From assembly GCA_024281055.1 (NCBI GenBank), contig JAMXLF010000067.1, forward strand, positions 1 to 40,898: a stretch of 40,898 bases of DNA, read 5' to 3'. Source of the DNA: Geobacteraceae bacterium (GTDB lineage: Bacteria; Desulfobacterota; Desulfuromonadia; Geobacterales; Geobacteraceae). The translations under genes and the position numbers were made by a program. Under the pieces are notes generated by a model that was not told the DNA's origin, ran no database searches, and saw nothing but the letters and a program-made list of their open reading frames with translations. Shown one piece after another: positions 15,624-22,973 of the stretch. The stretch's first letter is position 1. The number at the start of each line of letters is the position of its first letter.

Positions 15624-15670
15624 GGTGCCAGGGACGGAATCGAACCGTCGACACGAGGATTTTCAGTCCT
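15624..15670 (-). pseudogene. Truncated tRNA-Phe 3' half (putative attachment-site remnant)
   Basis: On the minus strand this 47-base stretch matches the intact tRNA-Phe (22898-22973) from the anticodon stem (AGGACTGAAAATCC) through the T arm to CACC. There is one substitution in the T stem (GACGG instead of GGCGG) and one missing G in the acceptor strand. The D arm and 5' acceptor strand are absent; sequence identity stops abruptly at 15671. The substitution makes the T stem fully Watson-Crick (A-U instead of G-U), so it looks like a real alternative tRNA-Phe 3' half rather than random decay. It cannot be a functional tRNA. Confidence 0.88.
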
Positions 15671-15932: not shown

Positions 15933-17090
15933 ATGAACATTGTTTTTATCACAACCTGTACCGCCCCATGGGGAGGGAGCGAGGAGCTTTGGGGAGGCAC
16001 GGCGGAAATCCTTGTGTCTCAGGGGCATCGCGTCTCGGCATTCCTTACGGTATTGGATTGCGGACACCCGCAGATCGTTCGCTTGCGGGAGGCAGGCGTC
16101 GAGGTACGTTTCCTCGCATCGGACTGGCTCCGCTACGCCGATCGCTTCTTTTCCAGGTGCTCATCCATCTTTGTCAGACCCATCGATCTCGTCCTGTCCG
16201 CAAGATTGAAGGCACAGTTCCCGGAGTTCGTGGTGGTTTCGCAGGGGGGGAACTTCGATGGGGTGAGGTACGGGGAGATCTGCCGACGCAACGGAATCCC
16301 TTACGTCATGCTTTCGCAAAAGGCTTCCGACGCCGGTTGGCCGAACGATTCGGTCCGGCCGCTGATGAAGAGCGCCTACCTCGGAGCGGTCCGCAGTTTC
16401 TTCGTTTCTCTCCACAACCTTAACCTTACGGAGCTTCAGATGGGGGCGCGCCTTCCCAATGCGGAGGTGGTCAGCAACCCTTGTGCGATTGCCGGGGCGA
16501 CGATGCTTCCCTGGCCTGATTCGGCGGAGGAAATTTTCAACCTAGCATGCGTGGCCCGGCTGATGGTGAAGGATAAGGGACAGGACATCCTGCTCCAGGT
16601 GCTGAGCCGTCCCAAATGGAGAGAACGCAATATCAGGGTATCTTTTTATGGAGACGGCATCAATCGGGAAGGGCTGATCGAGATGGGGAGGATGCTGGGG
16701 CTTGACCAGCAGGTAGCATTTCGGGGATTCGCCGTAGATGCCGGTGAGATATGGAAGGCGCACCATGCGCTGGTGCTTCCGTCGCGATGCGAAGGACTTC
16801 CTCTGAGCGCGATCGAGGCGATGACATGCGGAAGGCCGTCGATTGTTACCGCAGCAGGCGGCACAGCGGACATTGTCGAGGACAATGTGACGGGATTTGT
16901 GGCACGAGGAGCCGATACCGATGCCCTGGACGAAGCTATGGAAAGGGGATGGAGCCGTCGAGAGGAATGGCAAGCAATGGGGCGAGCGGCGGCCAGGCGG
17001 ATAAGGGTGCTTCTTCCCGCCGACCCTCATGCAGTTTTCGTGGAAAAAATATTGGGCGCCTGCGGTAAGGATTATCCGAGAGAACTCTGA
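15933..17090 (+). CDS. Glycosyltransferase, GT4 family (GT-B fold)
   Basis: A 385-residue retaining glycosyltransferase that probably adds a sugar from a nucleotide-sugar donor to a lipid-linked acceptor at the cytoplasmic face. It starts MNIVFITTCTAPWGGSEELW, the N-terminal GT-B strand and glycine-rich turn. The C-terminal donor domain shows VARLMVKDKGQDILL, FYGDGINREGL and the E-x7-E motif in CEGLPLSAIEAM, followed by GGTADIVEDNVTGFV. I chose the ATG at 15933 because upstream residues do not fit the family; the ribosome site is weak. It is the first gene of the island operon. The sugar and acceptor cannot be told from sequence. Confidence 0.9.
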   Translation: MNIVFITTCTAPWGGSEELWGGTAEILVSQGHRVSAFLTVLDCGHPQIVRLREAGVEVRFLASDWLRYADRFFSRCSSIFVRPIDLVLSARLKAQFPEFVVVSQGGNFDGVRYGEICRRNGIPYVMLSQKASDAGWPNDSVRPLMKSAYLGAVRSFFVSLHNLNLTELQMGARLPNAEVVSNPCAIAGATMLPWPDSAEEIFNLACVARLMVKDKGQDILLQVLSRPKWRERNIRVSFYGDGINREGLIEMGRMLGLDQQVAFRGFAVDAGEIWKAHHALVLPSRCEGLPLSAIEAMTCGRPSIVTAAGGTADIVEDNVTGFVARGADTDALDEAMERGWSRREEWQAMGRAAARRIRVLLPADPHAVFVEKILGACGKDYPREL

Positions 17091-17229
17091 CCCGCAACAA
17101 CCGGGTCAAGGGCGAGAGGGCTTATGCACGGGAATGTCACCCAGCCCGGCTGCTCCCTCATCCCCCTGCAAGCCAATCCATGAGCCGTCCCTAGCGGCTG
17201 TGCCTGCACCGTCTTTGCGAAAGCCAAAA

Positions 17230-18093
17230 ATGAGAATATTAAAATACAATAACGGAACGATCAGGTACTCCTCACGCTCACGGTTATCGCAGCCCGGGCT
17301 GCTGGCTACACAGTTGCTGCGCGATCTCCGCGCCTCGCGGGAGATCGGCTGGCTTTTCCTGGTCAGGAACCTGCGCGTGCAGTACCGGCGATCGCTCCTG
17401 GGCTACCTCTGGGCCGTGCTCCCGCCGCTGGCTTCCATGCTGAGCTGGGTCTATCTGAACATGATCGGAGTTCTGAAAGTGGGAGCCGTCGGAGTCCCCT
17501 ATCCGATCTACGTCCTCTCCGGAACCGTGCTGTGGCAGGCATTTCTCGATGCGCTCAACACGCCACTTAACCAGCTCTCGGCCAACCGCTCGCTGCTGAT
17601 CAAGGTCAATTTTCCCCGGGAGGCGCTCGTGCTGGCCGGAATGGGCGAGGTGCTCTTCAACTTCTGCATCCGTCTGGTCCTTTTGCTCGCGGCTTTCGTC
17701 TGGGCCGGCGTTTCCATCCCCCAGACCATCGTGCTGGTGCCGCTGGGGGTGCTGGCCCTGCTCCTGCTCGGGCTTTCCATAGGTCTTCTGCTGGTTCCCA
17801 TAGGGCTCCTTTACGAAGACGTCCAACGCGCCATCGGCATCTTCGCCACTGCCTGGTTCCTGCTGACTCCCATTGTCTACCACCAGTCCGTCCCGTGGCT
17901 TCCGGGGCTGCTGGCGCTCAATCCCTTGACCCCGCTGCTGGTCACCACCCGGGATTGGCTCACCACGGGGGTTCTGGCTCCCTCCCCCGGTGCGGGGTGG
18001 GTGGTCCTGGTTTCGATGGCGGTGCTCGCGGGAGGATGGGGATTGTTCAGCCTGGCCTTCAGCCATATCGTCCCGCGGTTGGGTGCCCGATGA
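17230..18093 (+). CDS. wzm: ABC-2 type polysaccharide export permease (Wzm-like)
   Basis: Integral membrane half of an ABC exporter that moves undecaprenyl-linked or similar glycans across the inner membrane together with the Wzt-type ATPase at 21515. It shows the ABC-2 signature RNLRVQYRRSLLGYLWAVLPP, then about six hydrophobic segments, and FPREALVLAGMGEVLFNF and LLYEDVQRAIGIFATAWFLLTPIVY as in O-antigen and teichoic acid permeases. The ATG at 17230 gives 287 residues; ATG 17134 and earlier in-frame starts are possible but add a Pro/Ser-rich stretch that does not fit. It ends in an ATGA overlap with the next gene. Transport class is sure, start less so. Confidence 0.88.
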   Translation: MRILKYNNGTIRYSSRSRLSQPGLLATQLLRDLRASREIGWLFLVRNLRVQYRRSLLGYLWAVLPPLASMLSWVYLNMIGVLKVGAVGVPYPIYVLSGTVLWQAFLDALNTPLNQLSANRSLLIKVNFPREALVLAGMGEVLFNFCIRLVLLLAAFVWAGVSIPQTIVLVPLGVLALLLLGLSIGLLLVPIGLLYEDVQRAIGIFATAWFLLTPIVYHQSVPWLPGLLALNPLTPLLVTTRDWLTTGVLAPSPGAGWVVLVSMAVLAGGWGLFSLAFSHIVPRLGAR

Positions 18094-19172
18094 CTCAGAC
18101 TGCCGGCCAGGGAAAGTTCGGATCCGAGATAGACGCCGCCGCGATCGATGAGGCGGTAGGGCGGGCGCTCGATTATCTCAGGCGCGCTCAACTCCCGCAC
18201 GGGCAGTTCAGGTCGTATCACTCGTTCGATGCGACGATGACAAAGGACTGCTACGACGATCCCACCGTCTTCGTGACCGCCACGATCCTCTATTCCCTCT
18301 TTTTCGCGGGGCTCGACCGCAATGATACCATGGTGCGGAAGGGGCTCGATTGGCTCGTGTTGGAGCGGGAGCAGCCGGGGGTATGGCGTTATTGCCCGCT
18401 TTCGCAGACTGGGCCATCCAGGATTCCTCCGGATACGGACGACACCTCCCTTATCGGCTTCGTGCTGGAGATGTACGGCGTCGATCCCTGCGTCGACAGG
18501 AAGCTGCTGCTCGCCAACCGGGAGAGAAACGGGCTTTTCAACTGCTGGTTGCTGCTGCGAGGGCGCAGGTACTACAACCCGGTCTGGTGGATGAGGGCAA
18601 TGCGCCACCCCCTCAAGTTCCTCCCGATCGCCTATCGCTCGTTTTGGCGCAGCACCGAATGCATTCCCAACGATATCGGCGCAGGCATGAACGCCAACGT
18701 GCTCCTGTACCTCGGGGAGGGCCGGGAGACGAAGCCGGTCGTGGAATATCTCCTGGAGGTGGTGAACCTTGGGCGCGAGGAAATCTGCGACCCCTACTAC
18801 GTCAGGCCCTCCATCATCCACTATCTCCTCTCGCGGGCCTTTTTTCACCGGGGAGGAGGACTCGCGGCGGCGCGGGAACCCGTTGTGGCAAGGGTCGCGC
18901 AGGGCTGGAGCGAGGGGTTTGACGATCCCCTGGGTACGGCAGCCTGGATCTCCACCCTCTGCAACTTCGGGTGTCTTCACGCTCTTCTCCCCGAGGCCGT
19001 GACACACCTGATCGGGACGCAGGTGTGCGACGGCTCATGGCCGCGGAGCCCGATCTACGTGGCAGGGCCCAGGCGCGCGATCCACTTTGGATCGGAGGAA
19101 CTGACCACCGCGCTTTGCGTGGAGGCGTTGTGTCGCTACCGGCAGGTGGCCCCGGGGGAGAAAGTTTTGTGA
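18090..19172 (+). CDS. DxDD terpene-cyclase-like alpha/alpha-barrel protein (prenyltransferase/squalene-oxidase repeats)
   Basis: A 360-residue protein with squalene-hopene-cyclase-type repeats. QW-like motifs occur at AQLPHGQF (about 34-40), EREQPGVW (about 92-99) and QVCDGSW (311-317). PPDTDDTSLIGFVL (Asp115, Asp117, Asp118) matches the DxDDT proton-donor motif of class II terpene cyclases. It is about half the length of squalene-hopene cyclase and has room for only one alpha/alpha barrel, so it may be a cyclase subunit, a non-catalytic lipid-binding relative, or work with the UbiA-fusion next door. The ATG at 18090 overlaps the permease stop as ATGA; translation is probably coupled. There is no signal peptide. 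The fold is fairly sure; the activity is unknown. Confidence 0.82.
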   Translation: MTQTAGQGKFGSEIDAAAIDEAVGRALDYLRRAQLPHGQFRSYHSFDATMTKDCYDDPTVFVTATILYSLFFAGLDRNDTMVRKGLDWLVLEREQPGVWRYCPLSQTGPSRIPPDTDDTSLIGFVLEMYGVDPCVDRKLLLANRERNGLFNCWLLLRGRRYYNPVWWMRAMRHPLKFLPIAYRSFWRSTECIPNDIGAGMNANVLLYLGEGRETKPVVEYLLEVVNLGREEICDPYYVRPSIIHYLLSRAFFHRGGGLAAAREPVVARVAQGWSEGFDDPLGTAAWISTLCNFGCLHALLPEAVTHLIGTQVCDGSWPRSPIYVAGPRRAIHFGSEELTTALCVEALCRYRQVAPGEKVL

Positions 19173-19185
19173 GTAAAGCCGACAG

Positions 19186-21525
19186 ATGAAAGCGCGCATC
19201 CGTTCCCTAAAACAACTCGCCCGGACCGAGCACTGGTGGGCACAGAAGGCCTCGCCGATGCTGGCGGTGGCGTATCTCGAGATCTTCCTTCATCATGCTC
19301 CGCCCGCGGCTGCTTTCCCGTACCTCGCGGGGCTCCTGTTTTTCATCATTTGCCTGGGGGCCTTCGGGAACTTCATAAATGACATCTTTGACATCGATCT
19401 CGACCGCCGCGCCGGCAAGTGGAACGCGATGGCTCAATGTTCTCCCTGGCAGCGGCTGGCGTTTTGCCTGGTAACGGCAGCCGTGGGAGGGATGCCGTGG
19501 GGCTTCCTTCCCCTGACACTGACCGCCAAGCTGCTTCTAGTGGTCTTCTACTTGGCGCAGCCCCTGTACGCCATACCTCCCGTGCGCCTGAAGGAACGGG
19601 GTTTCTGGGCAGTAATCACCGACAGTGTTTATACCCGCGTCGTGCCGGTCTGGTTCGTTGCGGAGACGGCGGGACGACTGGTGCCCTGGCGGCATCCGGC
19701 CGACCTCCCGCTAACGGTGGCGGTGACCGCGCTCGCCTTCTTCAACGGCCTGCGGGAGATCATCCATCACCAGATCCAGGATGCACCCGGCGACCGCCGG
19801 GGGGGAGCCACCACCTTCGTGACCTGCCACGGAGAGGATAGCGCCAGGCGCCTCGTGAAGAGGTATATCTTTCCAGCCGAGCTCGTTTGCGTGAGCGCGA
19901 CCCTCGCTGTGATCTTCACCTTCGCCCCGGGCATCGCCTGCTTCTTCTTCCTCTTCGCCGGTATCCTGGGACTTTCCTGGCTGCTCGGCGTCTGGAACAT
20001 CTCGTTCCGCGACCCTGTCCCTTTTCTCTGGGACGAATACGTGCCGCTTCGGGAGGGATACAAGGTCTGGCCTGCCCTGGCCTTTGCCGCGGAACTGGCG
20101 CTGCAAAGGCCGCTTTACCTTTCCTTGTTGGTCGTGCATGTCGTCCTCTTCTACCGAAAGACGCGGGAGGAAGCCTGCGACGCCCTTGATATTTTCGGGT
20201 GGAGTGCGGAGGATTTGGCCTCCCGGTTGGCCGCAGGCAATGCCGATCCCGAAATGAAAGAGGAGAGGGACGCGGGGAACGTTGCATTCGTCCTGCCCGA
20301 CGGGATGTCGCTGGGAGGGGTGACTTCCTGGTCCATTGCCATGGCCGATGCGCTGTCGACCATCGGCTGCCGGACCCACCTGGTCGAACACGTGAATGAA
20401 CGGGTCTCTCCGCAATATGAAGTACCTTCCGGAGTCTCTGTTCTGCAGCAGAGGGGGGTGCATCCCCATCATGCCACCAATGTCGAGGTAGCGGGATACG
20501 AAAGGTTGTACCGGAAGCTGCTTCCCGGCGTGCTGATCCCCAATTATTACTGTGGGACGTATGCAGCCTCTGCACTGCTGGCCCGGCGCCACGCCACCAG
20601 GATGCGGGTCATTGCCTTTGCCCACACGGACGAGGAGGACTATTACCGTCTGTTGAGCTACTACGAACCGCTCATTCATCTCTTCGTTGCGGTGAGCGGG
20701 CAGGTGGCCGGCAAACTGGCGGAGAGGATACCAACCCGTAGAAGCGATATCGTCACCCGTCCCTACGGGGTGAAAACCAGCGCGGGGTTCCGCCGCGATT
20801 ATTCGAAAGGGGACGCACCGCTCCGTATTGTCTACTCGGGCCGGCTGGTCGAGAAGCAGAAAAGGGTTTCCGACCTGGCACGCGTCGCCACCAGTCTGTC
20901 GGTTCGGAGAGTGGATTTTCGCCTCGATATCGTAGGCGAAGGGAGGGACGAGGACGCACTGCTGCGCGCCATCCAGGCGCTGGAGCCGGAGGTCCGCGGT
21001 CGCATCGCTTTCCGGGGGATGGTCTCCCCGGCGCGGATGCTGGAGATCTGGAGGGAGGCGGACGTCTGTCTGCTCGTCTCGGAGTATGAAGGGTTTTCCA
21101 TCTCCATGATCGAGGCCATGGCCGCCGGTTGCGTGCCGGTGGTTACCAAGGTGAGCGGGGCTGAGGGATTCATCCGGTCCGGCGAGAACGGCTATCTCGC
21201 CGAGGTCGGGGACGTCGAAGGGCTCGCCGAGGCGATCGCGAAGCTCGCCGCGGATCGCGACGCCTTGGAGCGGATGGGAGGCAAGGCGCACGAAAGCGTG
21301 GACGTCGAATTTTCCCTGGAGAGATATACGCAGTGGTTTTCCGAGGTCGTGGAGCGGGTCTGGAGCGAACCGGATCGCCCTTGGCCGCGGAGGAAGGCGT
21401 TGATGCCCCCCTACCACAGGCCGCGCGCCTCGATCCTGAGGTTCCGGATCGGGAACATCTGGAGACGGGTGAAAAAACTGCTGGCCGTATCGGGCCGAGA
21501 GGCGGGAGTTGCCGATGCGCGGTGA
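19186..21525 (+). CDS. UbiA-family prenyltransferase fused to GT4 glycosyltransferase
   Basis: A 779-residue fusion. Residues about 15-325 are a polytopic UbiA-type prenyltransferase with both Asp-rich metal/diphosphate sites intact: NDIFDIDLDRRAGK (Asp66, 69, 73) and HQIQDAPGDRRGG (Asp199, 203), plus the LYAIPPVRLKERGF loop. A short linker (about 335-362) leads to a complete GT-B glycosyltransferase (about 365-725) with VVEKQK-type donor region SGRLVEKQKRVSDL, IVGEGRDEDAL and E-x7-E at Glu635/Glu643 (EGFSISMIEAM). The C-terminal tail is basic. UbiA enzymes join prenyl groups to acceptors in the membrane; the attached GT4 would face the cytoplasm. The gene starts 13 bases after the cyclase-like gene and overlaps the ATPase gene. 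Substrates are unknown. Confidence 0.88.
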   Translation: MKARIRSLKQLARTEHWWAQKASPMLAVAYLEIFLHHAPPAAAFPYLAGLLFFIICLGAFGNFINDIFDIDLDRRAGKWNAMAQCSPWQRLAFCLVTAAVGGMPWGFLPLTLTAKLLLVVFYLAQPLYAIPPVRLKERGFWAVITDSVYTRVVPVWFVAETAGRLVPWRHPADLPLTVAVTALAFFNGLREIIHHQIQDAPGDRRGGATTFVTCHGEDSARRLVKRYIFPAELVCVSATLAVIFTFAPGIACFFFLFAGILGLSWLLGVWNISFRDPVPFLWDEYVPLREGYKVWPALAFAAELALQRPLYLSLLVVHVVLFYRKTREEACDALDIFGWSAEDLASRLAAGNADPEMKEERDAGNVAFVLPDGMSLGGVTSWSIAMADALSTIGCRTHLVEHVNERVSPQYEVPSGVSVLQQRGVHPHHATNVEVAGYERLYRKLLPGVLIPNYYCGTYAASALLARRHATRMRVIAFAHTDEEDYYRLLSYYEPLIHLFVAVSGQVAGKLAERIPTRRSDIVTRPYGVKTSAGFRRDYSKGDAPLRIVYSGRLVEKQKRVSDLARVATSLSVRRVDFRLDIVGEGRDEDALLRAIQALEPEVRGRIAFRGMVSPARMLEIWREADVCLLVSEYEGFSISMIEAMAAGCVPVVTKVSGAEGFIRSGENGYLAEVGDVEGLAEAIAKLAADRDALERMGGKAHESVDVEFSLERYTQWFSEVVERVWSEPDRPWPRRKALMPPYHRPRASILRFRIGNIWRRVKKLLAVSGREAGVADAR

Positions 21526-22765
21526 CAATGGCGCCGTCATGATCGAAGCAAACGGAGTCTCCAAGAAATTCTGCAAGAACTTCAGGCGCGCCCTCTGGTA
21601 CGGTGTGAAAGACGTCGCCAATGAGTTGGCCGTATGGCGGGATTCCAAGTCGTCTCTGCGCCCGGGAGAGTTCTGGGCCGTGCAGGATATCTCCTTCCGG
21701 TTGCAGCGCGGGGAAGCATTGGGAATCCTCGGGCATAACGGCGCCGGCAAAAGCACGCTGCTCAAGATGTTGCACGGCTTGATCAAACCGGACGACGGCG
21801 AGATAGAGGTACATGGCCGAGTGGGGGCGATGATCGAATTGGGAGCCGGCTTCAGCCCGCTGCTCAGCGGGCGGGAAAACATCTACCTGATGTCGGCCGT
21901 GCTGGGCCTGACCAGGAAGAAGACCGAGCAGGTGATCAGGCCGATCATCGAGTTCTCGGGACTGCAGGATTCCATCGACGCTCCAGTACAAACCTACAGC
22001 TCGGGGATGTGGGCGCGTCTCGCCTATTCGGTCGCAGCCCATCTCCAGCCGGACATCCTGCTGGTGGACGAGGTGCTGGCTGTGGGAGATCTTGACTTCC
22101 AGCGCAAGTGCCTCCAGCACATGCAGCAGTATGTGAAAAGCGGCGGGTCGCTCCTGCTGGTTTCTCACAACCTTTACCAGCTGCAATTCACCTGCCCGCG
22201 CACCTTGCTTCTGGACGAGGGACGAATAGTCTTTGCCGGCGACACCGTCTCGGCGGTCAATCGCTATATAGAACTGAGAGGCGGTCCCTCCCGAACCGCA
22301 TTGCCAGGGGCGTCTGCACCGGAAAAGGGCGGACAACGTCCGGCAACGGTGATCGAGAGGATCGAAATTAAAGGGGCCGATGGAGAGCTGATAACCGGAA
22401 GCCCCGCACGGGTCGAAATCCAACTGCGTTCCGAAGAAGAGGTCGGCGCGGTCAATTGGGGATGGACGGTGTGGTCCGCCGATCTCGAAGTCTGCATAAT
22501 GTTCGCCTTCACCGACGACGCCTCCCGTTGGCTGGGGAAGGGAGCGGCCACCTTTGCCGGTACGCTGCCGGAATTGCAGCTCAATGCCGGTTGTTACGCG
22601 CTTCGCGCCGCCGTCACCGACGTCAACGGCGCCGTTGTTGCCTGGTACGGCTGGGATATCCCTCCTCTCTTTTTCACGGTCCGCTCATCCGTCACTCGCC
22701 TGAACAACATCAACAGCATGCTGGGCGCCATCATCACACCGCGTGTGCACTGGGAAGCGCAGTAA
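21515..22765 (+). CDS. wzt: ABC transporter ATPase with Wzt-type C-terminal domain
   Basis: A 416-residue ATPase that powers glycan export with the permease at 17230. Walker A GHNGAGKST (73-81), signature YSSGM (161-165), Walker B ILLVDE (181-186) and the switch His in LVSHN are intact. From about 265 a beta-rich C-terminal domain (IERIEIKGADGELIT through WYGWDIPPLFFTV) matches the Wzt C-terminal carbohydrate-recognition type, which in known O-antigen systems binds the modified end of the finished chain. The ATG at 21515 is preceded by GGGAG; it overlaps the fusion gene by 11 bases. A later ATG at 21539 lacks a ribosome site. It is the last gene of the island operon. Confidence 0.92.
   Translation: MRGDNGAVMIEANGVSKKFCKNFRRALWYGVKDVANELAVWRDSKSSLRPGEFWAVQDISFRLQRGEALGILGHNGAGKSTLLKMLHGLIKPDDGEIEVHGRVGAMIELGAGFSPLLSGRENIYLMSAVLGLTRKKTEQVIRPIIEFSGLQDSIDAPVQTYSSGMWARLAYSVAAHLQPDILLVDEVLAVGDLDFQRKCLQHMQQYVKSGGSLLLVSHNLYQLQFTCPRTLLLDEGRIVFAGDTVSAVNRYIELRGGPSRTALPGASAPEKGGQRPATVIERIEIKGADGELITGSPARVEIQLRSEEEVGAVNWGWTVWSADLEVCIMFAFTDDASRWLGKGAATFAGTLPELQLNAGCYALRAAVTDVNGAVVAWYGWDIPPLFFTVRSSVTRLNNINSMLGAIITPRVHWEAQ

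Positions 22766-22897: not shown

Positions 22898-22973
<76 letters not shown>

Follow-up and report, generated by a model that had tools for sequence, protein, structure and literature searches.

Why two genes of apparent terpenoid chemistry should lie between the two halves of a glycan exporter is the question raised by an operon of a Geobacteraceae bacterium (GenBank assembly GCA_024281055.1, contig JAMXLF010000067.1). The window, meaning the whole stretch of DNA analysed, is this entire contig of 40,898 nucleotides (G000:C67), one of the 103 contigs of a 4.44-Mb genome. Positions 15933–22765 hold five same-direction genes, coding for a GT4 glycosyltransferase, a Wzm-type permease, a protein with a DxDD motif, a fusion of a UbiA prenyltransferase with a GT4, and a Wzt-type ATPase; by this order both exporter halves, Wzm and Wzt, flank the two terpenoid genes, DxDD and UbiA-GT4. 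The operon lies on an island bordered by tRNA-Phe sequences, and we consider it probable that this island encodes a terpenoid glycoconjugate pathway together with its Wzm/Wzt exporter, the product being probably cyclic.

Predicted enzymes and exporter of the operon

The three junctions claimed by the original prediction, which had been made from the letters alone, were all verified on the sequence: the Wzm stop (18093) and the start of the DxDD gene (18090) form an ATGA overlap, a 13-base gap separates the DxDD gene stop (19172) from the UbiA-GT4 start (19186), and the Wzt ATG at 21515 overlaps the UbiA-GT4 stop (21525) by 11 bases. Its count of five genes also held, but not its interval of 18090–22765, outside which the separate GT4 (about 15933–17090) and Wzm (about 17230–18093) fall.

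The DxDD protein (18090–19172, forward strand) is confidently modelled as one beta-domain of about 350 amino acids with the fold of single-domain class II terpene cyclases (AlphaFold2 run from 28 sequences, pLDDT 88.2, pTM 0.89). Its motif, DTDD, occupies codons 115–118 (18432–18443), and D115, D117 and D118 were invariant in 16/16 rows of one alignment and 28/28 of another. The closest match in both fold and sequence was to the HAD-terpene-cyclase drimenol synthases (AsDMS; 9mhs/9m7d), found by PDB sequence search (E 3.6e-6 with the protein alone, 1.6e-15 as a profile) and by structure (Z 33.4, rmsd 2.8, 302 aligned). Squalene-hopene cyclase (Z 29.1), two single-domain squalene-hopene-cyclase homologues (Z 29.2 and 28.2) and MstE of the merosterolic acid pathway of Scytonema (6sbc; Z 28.1, rmsd 3.4, 300 aligned, 17% identity) were also matched, with the first clear non-cyclase appearing in the list at Z 20.8. 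In the printed alignment D117 stands at D333 of drimenol synthase, the essential middle Asp, whose Asn mutant was inactive according to an excerpt of PMC9128629. The window protein has no HAD domain, whereas the drimenol synthases, in the same excerpt, use free farnesyl diphosphate (FPP) and remove phosphate. MstE shares the single-domain fold and acts on a prenylated acceptor, cyclising geranylgeranyl-dihydroxybenzoate, a prenylated aromatic acid, as an extract of PMC9401909 describes. Compared with MstE the window adds linked GT4s and Wzm/Wzt, and its operon has no aromatic-acid gene. The MstE gene cluster contains a UbiA as well. The original prediction had the DxDD protein shaping or binding a prenyl chain; its modelled fold and its motif fit a class II terpene cyclase better.

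The predicted fusion of UbiA to a GT4 was confirmed within a single 779-amino-acid frame (gene 19186–21525), both Pfam matches lying above cut-off: the UbiA half (19186–20190, forward strand) scored 50.8 bits (cut-off 34.2) and the GT4 half (20314–21288, forward strand) 97.6 bits with Glyco_trans_1_4 (cut-off 27) and 96.6 bits with Glycos_transf_1. Two Asp motifs of UbiA lie at N65–D73 (19378–19404) and H195–D203 (19768–19794); the NDxxDxxxD and DxxxD columns were invariant in 15/15 alignment rows, and an invariant His, followed by Q or E, precedes the second motif (we label such UbiAs HQ type, a name of our own). The class of this UbiA matters because UbiA-type phosphoribosyltransferases are present in other Wzm/Wzt loci, as reported in an excerpt of PMC11127046. 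Among PDB sequences the UbiA profile matched chlorophyll synthase (E 5e-9) and DGGGP synthase (6e-8), its nearest relatives there, and weakly UBIAD1 (0.03), with no phosphoribosyltransferase (DPPRS) chain among the matches up to E 5; the similarity to the first two is low (35–39 bits) and shared substrates are unlikely. NCBIfam scans of seven UbiA members returned nearly all prenyltransferase models, every score being below cut-off, and the decaprenyl-phosphate phosphoribosyltransferase model matched one of the seven relatives (E 0.016) and not the window at E 0.1. On these profile matches a phosphoribosyltransferase was rejected as the main reading of the UbiA, which looks like a prenyl-diphosphate-using enzyme.

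Related UbiAs share a gene run with prenyl-diphosphate synthases in three loci (L034, L055, L058), of which L034 and L055 also hold Wzm/Wzt. A polyprenyl synthase, UbiA (355 bits), Wzm and Wzt are consecutive on one strand in L034, with DxDD, PhyH and P450 genes nearby on the opposite strand. The same-strand run of L055, on a Methylomagnum plasmid, comprises a polyprenyl synthase, a UbiA (237 bits) about 3.5 kb further on, Wzm and Wzt, with glycosyltransferases and no DxDD match in the locus; in L058 (genome G260) a prenyl synthase directly precedes a more distant UbiA (114 bits), GT2s are present, and neither a DxDD nor an exporter match was found. Most matches of the L034 and L055 synthases are to geranylgeranyl diphosphate and FPP synthases, which suggests a C15 or C20 prenyl diphosphate as the UbiA donor; that of the window itself would come from housekeeping synthesis. 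In a separate locus, L041 of a Patescibacteria metagenome-assembled genome (MAG), a UbiA of a different type accompanies DxDD, a polyprenyl synthase and a geranylgeranyl-reductase domain; the synthase (L041:3299–5761) is split by an intein that contains a LAGLIDADG domain. Radical SAM proteins recur beside the related UbiAs of L034, L055 and L058, and one protein of an Oscillatoria plasmid (L054:8233–11556) joins methyltransferase, UbiA, PhyH and coiled coil in a stretch without a DxDD match.

The claim of a Wzm/Wzt exporter stood for Wzt and less directly for Wzm. The protein at 17230–18093 (forward strand; longest frame from 17029) had no Pfam match at all, and its NCBIfam scores (KpsM 33 bits, galactan permease 17.4 bits) were both under cut-off; it is classed as a putative Wzm-type permease through its 41% identity over 232 amino acids (E 4e-53) to the L034 Wzm, which does match Pfam ABC2_membrane. 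Wzt (21515–22765, forward strand; longest frame from 21509) matched ABC_tran with 75 bits and has a predicted C-terminal beta-rich domain; its identity is 46, 41 and 40% to the Wzt of L022, L053 and L034, respectively, and 27% to the Wzt of both L029 and L032. The carbohydrate-recognition domain assigned to it beforehand fell below the Pfam cut-off (Wzt_C, 16.1 vs 30.4 bits); the top Foldseek match of the model was full-length Aquifex aeolicus WzmWzt (8dku; E 2.5e-34), with 399 columns aligned at 30% identity and rmsd 7.0, the C-terminal blocks having a middling pLDDT of about 37–84. Both subunits are common to the window and the O-antigen exporters of this type, from which the window differs in having two terpenoid genes between Wzm and Wzt. 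By Pfam, the five genes of the island include no initiating phosphoglycosyltransferase, sugar-nucleotide or polymerising glycosyltransferase gene, a search that did not extend to the rest of the genome.

The separate GT4 (15933–17090, forward strand; longest frame from 15870; Glyco_trans_1_4, 90.9 bits) has 50% identity to a GT4 of L026, 45% to those of L017/L053 and 43% to that of L035, all from loci with UbiA and DxDD. It is not specific by itself: a plasmid search at E 1e-40 returned both Novosphingobium, a carrier of this system, and a Streptomyces plasmid whose 28-kb stretch gave neither a UbiA nor a DxDD match. The contig of L035, with UbiA, DxDD and a window-like GT4, is labelled as an Akkermansia muciniphila MAG, a bin assignment that looks doubtful.

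Co-occurrence and fusions across genomes

The co-occurrence check proposed with the original prediction was run as a genome-collection scan with the DxDD alignment, which gave 34 loci, 12 of them with a UbiA of the HQ type (above 300 bits with our own profile). All tests concern these 34 genome-contig loci, with L016, L017 and the window left out and L042 kept among the 22 others. A GT4 was present in 10/12 UbiA-bearing loci compared to 1/22 others (one-sided Fisher p 5e-6), a Wzt with the C-terminal domain in 5/12 compared to 0/22 (p 0.003), a Wzm in 4/12 compared to 1/22, and either Wzm or such a Wzt in 5/12 compared to 1/22 (p 0.014). GT2s occurred in 4/12 and 0/22, and sulfotransferase and PhyH genes each in 6/12 and 0/22. 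In a tree of the cyclases (L018, which is partial, L052, with a split frame, and L042, identical to L019, having been removed) the UbiA-linked members clustered, with 4 changes compared to a shuffled mean of 11.8, but did not form a single clade.

Loci with UbiA and DxDD, with or without a GT4, were found in Cyanobacteriota, Gemmatimonadota, Acidobacteriota, Pseudomonadota and Verrucomicrobiota besides the window's own phylum, and UbiA, DxDD, Wzm, Wzt and glycosyltransferases are all present in two loci on plasmids, one of Nostoc sp. C052 and one of Novosphingobium sp. RL4. With the two Novosphingobium loci merged (L017 and L053, which have identical cyclase rows, count as one), there are 14 distinct UbiA and DxDD loci including the window, and Wzm and/or Wzt were seen in seven of them (just Wzt in L022). 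The outcome that would have refuted the original prediction, a lack of co-occurrence elsewhere, was not obtained, and its overall pathway reading was supported in part: UbiA, DxDD and GT4 recur together, but not all five genes everywhere.

The same three enzymes are also joined in single chains, UbiA with DxDD in five cyanobacterial loci (L016, L023, L024, L029, L032), GT4 with DxDD and P450 in two Verrucomicrobia (L040, L045), and UbiA with GT4 in the window. Fusions therefore exist for all three possible pairs of UbiA, cyclase and GT4, and this speaks for a single pathway to which the three would belong. A chance neighbourhood, tried as an explanation, is made unlikely by the co-occurrence counts and the fusions. 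The cyanobacterial fusions are giant proteins in which TPR repeats are combined with a PhyH oxygenase, UbiA and a class II cyclase; these loci also encode TPR-sulfotransferases, and L024 and L032 in addition AMP-binding, carrier and thioesterase proteins. In both Verrucomicrobia (L040:8285–14642, L045:483–6859) the GT4-cyclase-P450 fusion is followed by a UbiA protein with an Acyl_transf_1 acyltransferase domain.

Within the phylum, DxDD matches were obtained in 8/395 genomes including the window, and the one other match spanning most of the protein came from G089, at a locus with no UbiA (L018/L019, the same sequence as L042). There the neighbours of the DxDD relative are three radical SAM-SPASM proteins and a different type of ABC exporter. 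That locus resembles a peptide-modification cluster, in which a cyclase would be unexpected. UbiAs of the window's kind were found at E 1e-20 in 2/395 genomes, the window's and, as a more distant one, G260.

The tRNA-Phe island

A feature overlooked by the original prediction is that the operon lies on a tRNA-Phe island. The intact tRNA-Phe (22898–22973, reverse strand; ARAGORN) is the probable insertion site, and at the far end 43 nt of its 3' half are duplicated (15628–15670, no strand assigned), with 98% identity to 22904–22946. The duplicates are 7276 nt apart, giving an island of about 7.3 kb. A 35-nt core of the tRNA-Phe sequence (up to two mismatches) was found at only these two places in the whole 4.44-Mb genome, and shuffled versions of the window gave no match. 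By frame listing and Pfam, the cargo consists of the five operon genes only and no integrase lies between the borders.

We searched 28 other genomes for the neighbourhood of the tRNA, and the tRNA-Phe was near an elongation factor P (EF-P) gene, named by Pfam, in 27/27 family loci scanned, G003 having given just a weaker EF-P paralogue. The DxDD protein had no match at E 0.001 in 57/57 other genomes of the family or order. The conservation of tRNA-Phe and EF-P, taken together with the absence of the DxDD protein from these relatives, indicates that the island was most likely acquired horizontally at the tRNA-Phe site. A UvrD gene, on the far flank in the window, was present in only one of the 27 family loci and there on the other side of EF-P, so that no clean empty site was found among the 27. 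GC content gave no clear island signal. In one family member (L061:1–1200) the DNA past the same tRNA-Phe looks, by eye, coding and unlike the window's island, and this position may be an insertion hot spot.

Proposed pathway, rival readings and significance

From the observed gene content, predicted folds, motifs, fusions, co-occurrence and island borders we infer the chemical steps, their order and the export of the product as follows. With a short prenyl diphosphate (probably C15 or C20) as donor, UbiA would prenylate an acceptor associated with the membrane. By protonating the terminal double bond, the DxDD cyclase would then close the prenyl chain into rings, much as MstE cyclises a prenylated acceptor, although cyclisation before prenyl transfer is also possible. 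Sugars would be added by the UbiA-fused GT4 and the separate GT4, and Wzm/Wzt would export the resulting molecule through the inner membrane, where the glycan may be recognised by the C-terminal domain of Wzt.

Several observations weigh against this pathway. The island holds no acceptor-making, oxygenase or prenyl-synthase gene by frame listing and Pfam. The DxDD protein is under the curated cut-offs (SQHop_cyclase_C 19.7 vs 26.1 bits in Pfam, TIGR01787 17.9 vs 322.7 in NCBIfam) and has a long branch in the cyclase tree, which is itself poorly resolved; a likeness of modelled fold does not establish the cyclase reaction. No exporter subunit was seen in 7/14 UbiA and DxDD loci, several of them on short contigs, and one locus (L021) has a major facilitator superfamily transporter and no exporter subunit seen. 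P450 (5/12 vs 3/22, p 0.08) and in-locus prenyl synthase (1 vs 1) genes were not enriched with UbiA. The p values are one-sided and several tests were made, the GT4, Wzm and Wzt profiles were seeded by proteins of the window, L016 and L017 and iterated on the same loci, and the 12 UbiA-bearing loci are non-independent (four are cyanobacterial), several with short contigs. UbiA relatives occur without DxDD (L054, L055, L058), and 22/34 DxDD loci have no HQ-type UbiA, two of these having another UbiA type; neither enzyme therefore requires the other, and the parts are usable separately. Examples of DxDD without UbiA in the stretch examined are L020, beside an amine-oxidase-like protein, and L028, beside a polyketide synthase (PKS) with MBOAT.

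A reading that overlaps the proposed pathway and differs in the purpose of the product is a soluble or envelope-associated terpenoid glycoside, an MstE-like meroterpenoid, with Wzm/Wzt as efflux pump and a role in chemical interaction and not in envelope structure. The MstE reaction on a prenylated aromatic acid (extract of PMC9401909) is a precedent for it, related loci hold PhyH, P450, sulfotransferase, acyltransferase or PKS genes, and the plasmid and island settings fit an accessory metabolite; the exporter, however, is like those of polysaccharides and teichoic acids and unlike a drug efflux pump, and we regard this reading as rather unlikely. Less plausible again is an undecaprenyl-diphosphate-linked polysaccharide capped or decorated by the terpenoid, which would be an export signal read by the Wzt C-terminal domain, an ornament and not an anchor. 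Wzt C-terminal domains do recognise terminal modifications in ABC-dependent O-antigen systems, which often have the gene of their initiating enzyme at another place (both in the excerpt of PMC11127046), and the alignment of the window Wzt with its L022 and L034 counterparts extends to the end of the protein. The island, by contrast, has only two GT4 domains and no chain-terminator, polymerising glycosyltransferase module or sugar-nucleotide gene, the rest of the genome not having been searched for these.

It is very improbable, in our view, that the UbiA is a polyprenyl-phosphate phosphoribosyltransferase (PPPRS), the operon decorating an ordinary O-antigen with pentofuranose and the DxDD protein having some other role. 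UbiA superfamily membership by itself leaves the donor undecided, and the three-component pentofuranose systems with UbiA-type PPPRS do have, as in the window, a UbiA homologue in a Wzm/Wzt locus (excerpt of PMC11127046). The window UbiA differs from these in its prenyl-diphosphate-like matches, described above for the PDB and NCBIfam, and in the prenyl-diphosphate synthases running with its relatives (the more distant one of L058 included); no phosphatase, GT-C or GtrA match was obtained by Pfam in the five operon proteins, the rest of the genome not having been searched.

ABC exporters of glycans are generally associated with the pumping of undecaprenyl-linked polysaccharides and teichoic acids, class II cyclases with hopanoid or natural-product synthesis. 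The individual parts are known; the combination of UbiA, DxDD cyclase and Wzm/Wzt was not found in searches of the open-licence PMC literature. The five-gene island is small and movable whole into a laboratory strain, so that its product can be sought directly. More tentatively, as a possibility that we hold to be somewhat less likely than not, the genes may make a so far unrecognised but widely shared class of surface or secreted glycans on a cyclic C15/C20 terpenoid anchor that replaces undecaprenyl diphosphate, built by UbiA, cyclase and GT4s, exported by a re-purposed Wzm/Wzt, sulfated and oxidised in other hosts, and spread via tRNA islands and plasmids among hosts as distant as cyanobacteria and Verrucomicrobiota. 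An operon interleaving exporter and terpenoid genes gives single-domain class II cyclases a new genomic context and predicts a class of molecule, cyclic-terpenoid glycoconjugates with a dedicated exporter, that would reach cyanobacteria, Gemmatimonadota, Acidobacteriota, Verrucomicrobiota and Pseudomonadota.

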